A stretch of DNA of 44,740 nucleotides, taken from the NCBI GenBank assembly GCA_027491735.1, contig JAOZGP010000035.1, positions 1 through 44,740 of the forward strand, given 5' to 3'. The notes beneath the pieces were generated by a model, which was not told the DNA's origin, searched no databases, and saw only the letters and a program-made list of their open reading frames with translations. This stretch comes from Thermoproteota archaeon. GTDB taxonomy: Archaea; Korarchaeota; Korarchaeia; Korarchaeales; Korarchaeaceae. Positions 2,741-44,740 of this stretch are shown in pieces (position 1 is the first letter of the stretch; every line of letters starts with the position of its first letter). The translations under genes and the position numbers were made by a program.

Positions 2741-3547
2741 ATGAATACAATAATTTGCACTAATCTTATCGAGGTCCTCTTAGGGCTCTCCATGGTCCTG
2801 TTGTTCGGTCTTCTGAGTTTATCCAAGAAAACAGTGGACTTCGCTGGGTTAGTGACTGGAGTAGTTGTAGGAAGCTCATATGTATTCGTGGGCGGTTTGA
2901 TGGCGTTCATACCGCTTTTAACCTTCTTTCTTCTTGCCAGTGCATTTACTAAATATAAGTACAGTGTGAAGATGAAAAGGGGAGCAGCAGAGGGAAAAGG
3001 GGGTGCCAGAAGCTGGAATAATGTGGTGAGTAACGGCCTTCCACCCTTCATGTTCTTGATCCTCTGGAGGATATTTTCCTCGCAGGCGTTATTTCTGGCA
3101 TTCCTCTCAGCCATAGCAGCTAACCTATCTGATACCCTGAGCAATGAGGTGGGAACCTTGAGCCACACCGATCCGATTCTTCTGTTTTCATGGAGAAGAG
3201 TCCCAGCTGGAACATCTGGAGCTGTATCTACCCGGGGAACATTAGTCGGCTTGATCACTCCTATTATAATATCAATTGAGGCAGTACCATTTTTGGGACT
3301 AAACTGGCAGCTTCTAACTCCCATATTTGCGGGGTTTATGGGTAACCTTATAGATAGCGTGCTTGGAGCCACACTTGAGGCGAAATATAGATGTCCCACA
3401 TGCGGCAAGATCATCGAAAAGAGATATCATTGTGGAGCTCCCGCAGAGCTCGTTAAGGGTGTTGGTTTCATCAACAAGGACGTCGTCAACGCCTCGATGA
3501 GCGCGTTCGCTGGGATCCTGGGGGCAATACTCTATTATTTAATATAA
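2741..3547 (+). CDS. DUF92/TMEM19-family integral membrane protein
   Basis: The protein has 268 residues and several hydrophobic helices. It carries the hallmarks of the DUF92/TMEM19 family: NLSDTLSNEVGTL, then the RVPAGTSGAVSTRGTL stretch, then GNLIDSVLGATLEAKYRC, and a closing region that includes VVNASMSAF. A small CPTCG...HCG motif near residues 220-233 could bind zinc. Plant VTE6 of this family is a phytyl-phosphate kinase, so a role in isoprenoid-phosphate metabolism for archaeal lipids is possible but only inferred. The frame opens upstream at a TTG (2711), but TATA placement favours the ATG at 2741. A T-rich tail follows the stop. Confidence 0.85.
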   Translation: MNTIICTNLIEVLLGLSMVLLFGLLSLSKKTVDFAGLVTGVVVGSSYVFVGGLMAFIPLLTFFLLASAFTKYKYSVKMKRGAAEGKGGARSWNNVVSNGLPPFMFLILWRIFSSQALFLAFLSAIAANLSDTLSNEVGTLSHTDPILLFSWRRVPAGTSGAVSTRGTLVGLITPIIISIEAVPFLGLNWQLLTPIFAGFMGNLIDSVLGATLEAKYRCPTCGKIIEKRYHCGAPAELVKGVGFINKDVVNASMSAFAGILGAILYYLI

Positions 3548-17693: not shown

Positions 17694-17852
17694 TGCTCCT
17701 CCCCTTTCACGTTAGGATTGATCCCGTGTAAAAGCATTACTGTCCTTCCAGCGAAGAATTAGTGTATTTTTCATAATTTCCCGATGGGAGACGTGAGCAG
17801 AAAATCATGATGTTGCATATGTAACATAGGATAGCTTCTGGGACATCAAAAC

Positions 17853-17862
17853 CTTTATAAAG
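17853..17862 (+). promoter_or_regulatory. TATA box ahead of structured RNA copy 1
   Basis: CTTTATAAAG is preceded by a purine-rich AAAAC stretch and begins 33 bases before the first base of the closing helix at 17886. Transcription would begin within a few bases of the folded element. The matching site for copy 2 (CTTTATGAAG at 44597-44606) begins 34 bases before its helix. No better TATA box lies between the element and the atpE start at 18083. Confidence 0.65.
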
Positions 17863-17883
17863 ATGAGGGTCGACGGTGGAATG

Positions 17884-18000
17884 AGCTCCGTTCGGGATAT
17901 GAGGGGGGTAGTGATGAGGGATAAGCTCAAAAGAGCGGAGCTCGGATGGGATAGATGTGAGAAGCTCTGCTCCCCCCGAAGGACTGCTGATGAGTGGAGG
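17884..18000 (+). ncRNA. Candidate structured RNA, copy 1 (upstream of ATP synthase)
   Basis: Non-coding element matching 44629-44740. The closing helix pairs CTCCGTTC (17886-17893) with GAGTGGAG (17992-17999). Inside, GGGATAAG leads into a GCTC-AAAA-GAGC hairpin (17925-17936). Then come GATAGATGT (17950-17958), GCTCTGCTCCCC (17964-17975) and TGATGAG next to the closing helix. Compared with copy 2, stem bases change in pairs while the single-stranded blocks stay. It ends 83 bases before the atpE start, so it could be a free RNA or the 5' leader of the E-I-K-C operon. Not recognised as tRNA, 5S, SRP, RNase P, or the TPP, SAM or fluoride riboswitch. Confidence 0.65.
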
Positions 18001-18082
18001 CAGGAAGGTTGTTCGTCATAAATGTCACGAAGGTTACAAATGTAGCGGGTAGCTGGAACGTGAGTGCGGAAGGTCGTCTAAA

Positions 18083-18619
18083 ATGGTTGAAAGCGAGGTT
18101 CTATCTGAGATAAGGGAAGATATTGAGAGATCCAGAAGTATCATTGAGGAGGCCAGGAAGAAGGCTGAGGAGATCATTGAGGAGGCCAGGAAGAAGGCTG
18201 AGGTCGAGGCGGATAAGATCATCGGTCGGGCCAGATATGAGATCAGGGCTGCCAGAAATAGAAAGAAGAATGAGATCGTGAACGGGATTTTCCATAACGC
18301 TGAGAAGATATTAGAGCGTTACACCTCAGATGACGAGAGAGCTCTCAGTGAAACGATCAGACTTATCAAAGCCACCTCAAAAGAACTCAGTGGAGAGGAG
18401 ATCAAAGTTAAAATTCCTGTCAGGTTTAAAGACAAGGTTAACGTCCTTAAGAAAGAACTCGGCGTTGAGATTGAGGCGGAGGACACACTGAGGAGCAGGT
18501 GTGGAGGAATCGTGTTAACTAAGGATGAGAGGATATGGATAGAGACCACGATTGAAAGTCGGATGAAGGAGGCCAAGGACAAACTAAGGCTCCAGGTCAT
18601 CAAAATCCTCTCGTCCTGA
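18083..18619 (+). CDS. atpE: A-type ATP synthase subunit E
   Basis: Peripheral-stalk subunit E of the archaeal ATP synthase, 178 residues. The first half is a long charged helix for the stalk coiled coil (EEARKKAEEIIEEARKKAEV); the second half is the globular head-binding domain, including GGIVLTKDERIWIETTIESR. Its coiled coil contains an exact 33-bp-period duplication. The usual stalk partner, subunit H, is not found beside it. The ATG at 18083 begins the plus-strand half-operon E-I-K-C; atpI follows after 13 bases. The structured RNA element ends 83 bases upstream. Confidence 0.93.
   Translation: MVESEVLSEIREDIERSRSIIEEARKKAEEIIEEARKKAEVEADKIIGRARYEIRAARNRKKNEIVNGIFHNAEKILERYTSDDERALSETIRLIKATSKELSGEEIKVKIPVRFKDKVNVLKKELGVEIEAEDTLRSRCGGIVLTKDERIWIETTIESRMKEAKDKLRLQVIKILSS
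18140..18203. repeat. Tandem 33-bp-period repeat in atpE
   Basis: Thirty-one identical bases at 18140-18170 recur at 18173-18203, encoding IIEEARKKAEE followed by IIEEARKKAEV. The 11-residue period is the hendecad spacing of right-handed coiled coils, which suits the A-type ATPase stalk. Perfect DNA identity points to recent duplication. Confidence 0.9.
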
Positions 18620-18632
18620 GAGGGGGTTCCGC

Positions 18633-20300
18633 ATGGGAACTTACCGCTCGGAGAAGTTTGTAGATGTCAACATATGGATGGAAGAGAGATACTCCTCCGT
18701 GCTCATGAATTACCTCTCTGAGAACCAAATCTTTCACGTAAGAGGAAACAGAATAGCAGACAGACCGAAGAACATAGACCAGCTGATGAGCAGATGTGAG
18801 GAGATCAACAAAATGGTTGATTACCTTAATGAGATAGTTCCTAAGGGAACTCCTTCTAAGCTTGTGCTTCCAGCAGATATAAGAGCTGCTGTAAGTTTCC
18901 TGTATAAAACAGTTAAGGAGCCGTACGATCGCATCAACGAGATAATGGCTAGAGCTGAATCCCTCTACGGAAGACTTGCCTCTGGAGAGCCTATTGATTC
19001 CTGCTTGAAGGAGCTCGAATCTCTAGTAGATGAGCTTGAGAGGATTAGAAAGAACCTCTCGAGAAAGATTATATCCTTCAAGGAGGCAGCTGATTCCCTC
19101 AGAAGACGACTGGATTTCCTAGGAAAAAACTCACAGTATGAGTCATTCTTCGTGGTCAATGGATGGGTTCCGGAGAAGAGGCTCAAGTCCATAGCTGATG
19201 ACCTGGAGAGTCTCTGCGACGGGCTGGTCGTGATAGAGATAGTCAAGGTGAGGGACTATCCACCAACCCTGATAAAGGTTCCGAAGATCTTGTTCCCCGT
19301 GCAAAGCCTGGTGGATGCCTTTGGTCTTCCTAAATCCACGGAGATAAACCCAGCTATACTCGCTTGGTTGACCTTTCCGCTGTTCTTTGGTATGATGTTC
19401 GGGGATGTAGGTCAGGGCTTAGTTATACTTCTCGTAGGACTACTGTCCATGTACGTAAGCAGGAGGAGAAAGTTCGATGGAATCACAGGCATGATCGTCA
19501 ATAATGGACAATTTTTGATCGCTTTAGGAGTAGGAGCGATCGTTTTCGGGTTTGTCTATGGAGATCTGTTTGGCCCCGACAGATTCTTAAAATTCGGTCT
19601 ATTTCATCCAATGGAAGAGACTAATAGAGCGATAATAATAGCTCTCTTCGTAGGAGTAGTCCACATAACCACAGGCATAGCTCTGTCGGTGGCCAACTGC
19701 TTGATGAATAGAAAGTACCTGGACGCTCTATTTGGACCGGTACCTTGGCTAGCGTTCTACTTGATGTTCACCTATCCGATAGCCTACAAGTTCTTCTGTC
19801 CAACGTGGCACATGGATCTGAGCGGGATATACTTCAACCCGATGTTCTTAGGAGCTCTGGCTGTGCCCCTTCTAGTAATGCTAGCAGGACATCCAGTAAA
19901 GGAGATTCTGGAGGAGGGGCGCAGCCTGAGAGAAGCTCTTTCATCAATCGGAATGGGCTCCATGGAGGTCTTCGAGGTCGGTCTTGAGTCCTTGGGTCAC
20001 ACTATATCTTATCTGCGATTGTGGGCGTTGAATATGGCTCATGAGGCTCTAATGATTGTTTTCATAAGACTTGCTTTCATGTGTTACCCCACGAGCTTCA
20101 TAGCAGGTCTCGTGATAGAGCTGGGAGGAAACCTCCTGGTACTGACATTGGAGGGAGCTATAGCCTTTATGCATGCTTTAAGGCTTCACTGGGTTGAGTG
20201 GTTCATGAAATTCTACGATGGAACAGGATATCCATTCAGACCATTCCAGGACAAATGCAGATGGGTGATCTACGGGGGATTGTCTGCACAAAGATTTTAA
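18633..20300 (+). CDS. atpI: A-type ATP synthase subunit I (stator subunit a)
   Basis: Membrane stator subunit of 555 residues, somewhat shorter than the 600-700 usual for the family, mainly through a compact cytoplasmic N-terminal half. From about residue 245 it has several membrane helices with FFGMMFGDVGQGL. Near residue 455 the SYLRLWALNMAHEAL helix carries the essential arginine of the ion path, and the C-terminal MHALRLHWVEWFMKFYDGTG motif follows. It forms the two half-channels facing the K ring. The ATG follows AGAGGGGG, 13 bases after atpE. Confidence 0.95.
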   Translation: MGTYRSEKFVDVNIWMEERYSSVLMNYLSENQIFHVRGNRIADRPKNIDQLMSRCEEINKMVDYLNEIVPKGTPSKLVLPADIRAAVSFLYKTVKEPYDRINEIMARAESLYGRLASGEPIDSCLKELESLVDELERIRKNLSRKIISFKEAADSLRRRLDFLGKNSQYESFFVVNGWVPEKRLKSIADDLESLCDGLVVIEIVKVRDYPPTLIKVPKILFPVQSLVDAFGLPKSTEINPAILAWLTFPLFFGMMFGDVGQGLVILLVGLLSMYVSRRRKFDGITGMIVNNGQFLIALGVGAIVFGFVYGDLFGPDRFLKFGLFHPMEETNRAIIIALFVGVVHITTGIALSVANCLMNRKYLDALFGPVPWLAFYLMFTYPIAYKFFCPTWHMDLSGIYFNPMFLGALAVPLLVMLAGHPVKEILEEGRSLREALSSIGMGSMEVFEVGLESLGHTISYLRLWALNMAHEALMIVFIRLAFMCYPTSFIAGLVIELGGNLLVLTLEGAIAFMHALRLHWVEWFMKFYDGTGYPFRPFQDKCRWVIYGGLSAQRF

Positions 20301-44482: not shown

Positions 44483-44596
44483 AGGTTTGAACTCATTGTC
44501 TTTTAGAGAAGATCTCGCTGAGAAGTCCCACCTAAGTGAGGACAGAAGCGCTGATGTTGCGTTCGTGGCGTATGAAGACCTTCGCAATGCCAAGAT

Positions 44597-44606
44597 CTTT
44601 ATGAAG
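44597..44606 (+). promoter_or_regulatory. TATA box ahead of structured RNA copy 2
   Basis: CTTTATGAAG begins 34 bases before the closing helix of copy 2 at 44631, almost the same spacing as the CTTTATAAAG of copy 1. This placement supports separate transcription rather than read-through from rpsB. Confidence 0.55.
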
Positions 44607-44628: not shown

Positions 44629-44740
44629 GGCTCCGCTCGGGATGGGCGCGAGAGGAAGGGATAAGCCCGAGAGGGCTGAGCTTCGACAAGATAGATGTAG
44701 GGGGCTCTGTTCCCCAGAAATCCCGTTGATGAGCGGAGAA
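44629..44740 (+). ncRNA. Candidate structured RNA, copy 2 (downstream of rpsB)
   Basis: Homologous to 17884-18000. The closing helix pairs CTCCGCTC (44631-44638) with GAGCGGAG (44731-44738). An AGCCC-GAGA-GGGCT hairpin with a GNRA-type loop follows GGGATAAG (44658-44665). Then come GATAGATGT (44690-44698), a GGGG/CCCC hairpin presenting GCTCTG (44704-44709), a GGGAT/ATCCC pairing (44639-44643 with 44720-44724), and TGATGAG at the helix base. The window ends two bases after the helix, so the gene it precedes, if any, is not visible. A TTG frame at 44487-44729 overlaps it and is rejected as coding. Confidence 0.65.

Follow-up and report, generated by a model that had tools for sequence, protein, structure and literature searches.

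The two RNA-like repeats in our window, a stretch of 44,740 nucleotides, are very probably non-autonomous transposable elements of the IS200/IS605 type, similar to palindrome-associated transposable elements (PATEs). Each would be what an internal deletion left of a tnpB transposon, and the RNA that each carries would be the omega-RNA (reRNA) of TnpB. Judged from sequence, copy 1 is an internal-deletion derivative that retains left end, TATA box, omega-RNA scaffold and right end. Its RNA matches omega-RNA by origin and by structure, and a role in TnpB binding and cleavage is predicted. The likely role of these elements is that of trans-acting guide RNAs carried on non-autonomous transposons. 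The window is contig C7 of genome G000, an assembly of 1.36 Mb in 41 contigs with a completeness of 88%.

Both window copies proved to be the core of a longer repeat than the earlier note had proposed, composed of a left-end palindrome, a TATA box, the structured RNA and a right-end hairpin that terminates in ..AGAACG (Table 1). Since the left end and the right end are conserved around the RNA, we define copy 1 as an element of about 265-266 bp, with a left boundary uncertain by about 5 nt. The conserved left end, (GG)GGCAGAAACGTATAATGTTGTATTCGTAACAT, includes the palindrome and lies 5' of the TATA box; counterparts of the palindrome are ATGTTGTATTCGTAACAT in the sibling C40_106k and ATGTTGTATTCATAACAT preceding the intact tnpB of locus L109. 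The 3' flank of copy 2 is itself conserved, with a hairpin GGTTCTCCGCTAC...GTAGCGGAGAACC followed by AGAACG. Copy 2 is cut by the contig end and resumes in contig C38, where it reaches base 186; an exact end overlap of 127 bases (C7:44614-44740 = C38:1-127) indicates that the two contigs are probably neighbours, broken at this copy. The copies align over their full length and contain the blocks listed in the earlier note, TCGGGAT, GGGATAAG, GATAGATGT, GCTCTG[CT]TCCCC and TGATGAG, in that order; a CTTTATRAAG box precedes both, with 31-32 nt from its start to the first base of the helix. About a fifth of the aligned columns differ between them. By folding energy alone, copy 1 does not stand out (z = -1.1), while copy 2 scores well (z = -3.0). 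In copy 1, helix P2 is degenerate and P4 is rich in G-U pairs.

Table 1. Coordinates of the two elements, their parts and the adjacent gene in the window.
Feature	Position	Strand	Basis
Copy 1, complete PATE-like element	17795..18060	+	Alignment with siblings C27_18k, C40_106k, C40_48k and relatives
Left-end palindrome ATGTTGCATATGTAACAT, copy 1	17810..17827	+	Sequence; counterparts in C40_106k and L109
TATA box CTTTATAAAG, copy 1; tnpB promoter by position	17853..17862	+	Sequence; placement in L109
P1 helix, 5' arm AGCTCCGTTC, copy 1	17884..17893	+	RNAalifold (five copies); covariation (23 stand-alone copies)
P1 helix, 3' arm GAGCGGAGCT, copy 1	17933..17942	+	RNAalifold; covariation; comparison with tnpB
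P3 helix, copy 1: ACTGCT 17983-17988 with GGCAGG 17999-18004	17983..18004	+	Covariation
P4, right-end hairpin, copy 1: 18007-18018 with 18043-18054, many G-U pairs	18007..18054	+	
Predicted guide segment, flanking DNA directly after ..GGAACG, copy 1	18061..18076	+	Analogy with ISDra2 reRNA (PMC8612924)
Gene read as ATP synthase subunit E (atpE), 22 nt past copy 1	18083..18619	+	ORF list
Copy 2, same element, interrupted by contig end	44538..44740 (start approximate, near 44538)	+	
TATA box CTTTATGAAG, copy 2	44597..44606	+	Sequence; alignment with copy 1
P1 hairpin, copy 2: GGCTCCGCTC 44629-44638 with GGGCTGAGCT 44673-44682	44629..44682	+	

The family is far from limited to the two copies that the earlier note had recognized. 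A covariance model trained on five copies from this genome returned 25 matches within it and found further homologues in other archaea. A BLAST search with copy 2 and its 3' flank as the query retrieved a third locus in contig C27 (83% identity, E = 1e-25), so the likeness of the copies is not due to chance, and it also matched C40 and other places. The copies in this genome are older and divergent, with many partial remnants, and the neighbours of each are unrelated; copy 2, for example, follows an S2-like ribosomal gene. Our searches of this genome, which is 88% complete, recovered no intact TnpB or TnpA of matching kind, only tnpB fragments and one 40-residue fragment of a Y1 transposase (TnpA). 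The Rfam comparison yielded no family, in line with the earlier note: at the gathering threshold only tRNAs were reported, and matches to C/D-box RNAs were weak and far below the cut-off. The genome also holds a minimal derivative at C30:15405, made up of left end and right end without the omega-RNA, and a second subfamily (C27:102018 and C16:35153) that has the left end and TATA region in common with the elements described here and a clearly different RNA body. The two RNA bodies of this subfamily are 76% identical, and its autonomous parent was not found in our searches.

The origin of the RNA can be read from loci where tnpB is still recognizable. At C28:6321, a tnpB remnant closes with sequence (..CGLKADRDVVSSWNIRLRGLKSLKIDVGSSVPP and stop) that makes up the 3' half of the RNA, the same right end follows, and the 3' half of copy 2 matches this arrangement. 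The overlap of a tnpB 3' end with the right end that characterizes omega-RNAs was observed at C28, at L102, at L109 and in genomes G002 and G009; from the window copies, tnpB itself has been deleted. A scan of named genomes for GTAGCGGAGAACCAGAACG located it in Methanocaldococcus, Methanocaldococcaceae, Archaeoglobaceae, Methanoxibalbensis, Alkanophaga and a Thermoprotei MAG, together with one bacterial match that looks unrelated. The Thermoprotei locus (L109, MAG B45_G16) encodes an intact TnpB frame of about 409 aa, which matches the NCBIfam guided_TnpB model (RNA-guided TnpB endonuclease; E = 4e-41, above the cut-off) and contains the Cas12f1-like TNB domain of Pfam. Its tnpB is flanked by a left-end palindrome and a TATA box of the same kind, the latter at the same place relative to the left end, and by a right end that finishes in the identical GTAGCGGAGAACCAGAACG. 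In L103, from Methanocaldococcaceae, the deletion itself is readable: the codons for CGxKLSPNG are joined to those for LKMWGVSVPP, and the right end follows. From the layouts of L109 and L103 we conclude that the TATA box of the window copies corresponds to the tnpB promoter, and the same comparison matches the inner hairpin GCCCGAAAGGGC to the K-L-S-P-N-G zinc-ribbon codons. A TATA-like box precedes most stand-alone copies. The L103 contig also carries a CRISPR repeat array (about 2817-3055), some 1.3 kb from the stand-alone element.

Covariation supports a structured RNA with its own TATA box, as the earlier note had claimed, through helices that differ in part from those it had drawn. RNAalifold, applied to five copies, placed the conserved 5' helix P1 at AGCTCCGCTC/GAGCGGAGCT, with the 3' arm just past the inner hairpin and not in pairing with the 3' GAGCGGAG; this first consensus was used for P1 only, its other helices being replaced by P3 and P4. 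The first bases of the P1 3' arm overlap the inner hairpin of the earlier note (17925-17928/17933-17936) and correspond to the TnpB K-L-S-P-N-G codons. Since MAFFT misaligned P1 among distant copies, the helix was scored by a script in 23 stand-alone copies, with the arms pinned by hand to loop motifs. P1 formed 7.35 of 8 pairs in its own register, compared with 5.2 when the arms were swapped and 3.3-4.2 when they were slid, and none of 200,000 permutations reached the observed pairing, either for the 23 copies or for one copy per lineage (15 copies). Across archaeal lineages the arms of stand-alone copies change by paired substitution, as in CTCCGCTC/GGGCGGAG, GCAGTCCC/GGGACTGC, TAGTCTCC/GGGGACTA and CTGCGCCC/GGGCGCGG; its counterpart in intact tnpB, CTGTGCCC/GGGCACAG, spans the codons of the TnpB zinc ribbon. 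Helices P3 and P4 in 12 stand-alone copies contained 91.5% standard pairs and 16 double-sided changes; no slid version came close and none of 500 shuffles was as good. In alignment A3, an internal 14-base duplication of L104 was taken out for alignment only. P1, P3 and P4 together provide the conserved scaffold structure characteristic of an omega-RNA.

The paired changes that the earlier note had reported between copies 1 and 2 hold for the inner hairpin, where one double-sided change (T-A vs C-G) is present, and fail for the closing helix, CTCCGTTC/GAGTGGAG vs CTCCGCTC/GAGCGGAG, where we found two one-sided G-U changes in two different base pairs. As a conserved helix, this closing helix held in only three siblings, and each of the eight other copies examined formed just 2-5 of its 8 pairs; the TGATGAG block that had been used for it sits in the loop of P3.

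Matches to the covariance model were obtained in 25 of 61 archaeal genomes at E<=0.01, and strong matches (E<=1e-8) in 32 of 297 archaeal genomes. Many of these are the 3' ends of intact or broken tnpB genes and many stand alone. Two genomes, G002 and G009, contain intact tnpB genes alongside stand-alone copies with the same sequence; these genes are about 65% identical to the L109 TnpB and have a second type of right end. Similarity among copies ends at ..AGAACG and the flanks differ in every copy. G009 carries two stand-alone copies that are 98% identical with different flanks, and G139 carries nine full-length matches, of which the seven sequences read are all stand-alone, each at a different site, so that these two genomes display the multiple copies at unrelated sites that are typical of PATEs. 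Three genomes are rich in stand-alone copies, with nine strong matches each: G139 (L191-L197), G203 (L198-L203) and G290 (L204-L207). The exact right-end pattern was absent from viral contigs, and a stand-alone copy from G290 had no match among phages and plasmids.

PATEs were described in Haloquadratum (Dyall-Smith et al. 2011, PMC3119063) as short elements without a transposase gene, with subterminal palindromes of IS605 type and an origin by core deletion, and the elements of the window resemble them in all these respects: they have the left-end palindrome and right-end hairpin of the intact tnpB element L109 and no full transposase gene. One PATE, HqIRS71, even keeps non-coding sequence from the C-terminal part of tnpB (PMC3119063). 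PATEs were, however, described before omega-RNA was known, whereas the window elements keep promoter and omega-RNA together and their RNA covaries. The second system of reference is ISDra2, whose TnpB binds a reRNA of about 150 nt derived from the tnpB 3' end and the right end and terminating in ~16 nt of flanking DNA, and cleaves the joint that excision leaves behind (Karvelis et al. 2021, PMC8612924). The RNA described here is similar in its origin and in its structured scaffold. Unlike the ISDra2 reRNA, it is separated from tnpB and driven directly by the tnpB promoter, and a 5' hairpin made of zinc-ribbon codons is joined to the 3' scaffold after the loss of about 100 nt. Because P1, which derives from these codons, keeps compensatory changes once it is non-coding, our results suggest that archaeal omega-RNA may extend about 250 nt upstream of the guide, beyond the length of the ISDra2 reRNA.

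We propose that a deletion joined the left end and the promoter of tnpB to the 3' portion that encodes the omega-RNA and left the right end in place. Transcription would start about 25 nt past the TATA box, with the RNA 5' end just upstream of the P1 5' arm (17884), and would continue through the scaffold. In analogy with ISDra2, where the flanking DNA at the 3' side serves as guide, the guide of the window elements is predicted to be the ~16 nt to the right of the element, which in copy 1 would begin at 18061, just before atpE. With a matching TnpB in the cell, the stand-alone RNA would load the protein in trans and guide it to cut alleles free of the element, repair would then restore the element, and TnpA acting in trans would move it.

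Since our searches of this genome recovered neither an intact TnpB nor an intact TnpA, copies 1 and 2 may now be inactive relics. That they are nothing other than the decaying remains of deleted tnpB transposons, now functionless and with a structure inherited rather than selected here, is a reading to which we give somewhat less than an even chance. It draws on the same lack of intact genes, on the divergence between copies 1 and 2 and on the abundance of partial remnants; yet the pairs of P1, P3 and the right end are still mostly intact in both copies, the TATA boxes are retained and the MAG is only 88% complete. Moreover, the covariation of P1 across non-coding copies argues that this helix has long been under selection in the family. 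A guide RNA domesticated by the host, retained so as to regulate a host target by bringing a TnpB-like protein to it, could likewise account for stand-alone omega-RNAs with their own promoters and covarying structure persisting in many archaea. We consider it quite improbable, given that the copies are multiple and have different flanks, and therefore different guides, that their ends are intact with no conserved site seen, and that no intact TnpB-like protein was found in this genome.

Even less credible, to the point of being nearly dismissed, is the reading of copy 1 as a leader that regulates the atpE (E-I-K-C) operon in cis, riboswitch-like or otherwise; the earlier note had raised the riboswitch-like form as one option. 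Its position between a divergent gene and atpE, with a TATA box, invites such a reading, but the same element recurs in unrelated contexts, in many places and genomes, without the conserved tie to one gene or pathway expected of a riboswitch; the element is bounded by the ends of a transposon, and in relatives the counterpart of its RNA is the 3' end of tnpB together with the right end. Interpreting copy 1 as a deletion derivative of a tnpB transposon leaves room for a local influence: the element occupies most of the 390-bp gap ahead of atpE and stops 22 nt short of the ATG, so an effect on this gene is possible, and copy 1 may still provide atpE with a promoter and a 5' leader. Any such effect would come from the insertion, not from a conserved leader with a regulatory role. 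The ATP synthase operon itself seems either divergent or acquired horizontally; searches with atpE found nothing in named genomes and no match in genomes of the same genus. The adjacent AtpI (18633-20300) has 555 aa and shares only about 30% identity with its ~800-aa counterpart in same-genus genomes.

Among described RNAs, the closest are probably HgcC4 and HgcC5 of Thermococcus kodakarensis, which are not tied to transposase genes; HgcC1-3 transcripts start within transposase genes in the sense direction, and the HgcC RNAs are multi-copy and have been reported from 43 archaea (Jager et al. 2014, PMC4247193). The likeness is that of a multi-copy archaeal RNA, and the Rfam scans of stand-alone copies gave no HgcC match at E<=1 or E<=10, from a library that possibly lacks an HgcC model. 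By this analogy, the T. kodakarensis transcripts support expression of the stand-alone RNA, though only indirectly. A limited literature search, which covered few subscription papers, found no paper describing omega-RNA-bearing PATEs or MITEs. Within that search, the recurrent architecture of promoter, P1, scaffold and right end seems new, as does the placement of P1 over zinc-ribbon codons with its covariation in non-coding copies.

A broader proposal, which we put forward as speculation and think unlikely, is that promoter-bearing stand-alone omega-RNA elements are kept across archaea as dispersed trans-acting guides for TnpB or domesticated TnpB, having arisen again and again through one type of deletion that fuses promoter, zinc-ribbon hairpin and 3' scaffold, with some copies, such as that before atpE, possibly taken over for host gene control. 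With this analysis, an RNA-like repeat that had no explanation becomes a testable example of guide RNAs outliving their nuclease gene. It offers a possible identity for transposase-linked non-coding RNAs such as HgcC, and the genomes in which intact tnpB coexists with stand-alone copies (G002 and G009) would bear on the possible use of many dispersed guides by one TnpB.
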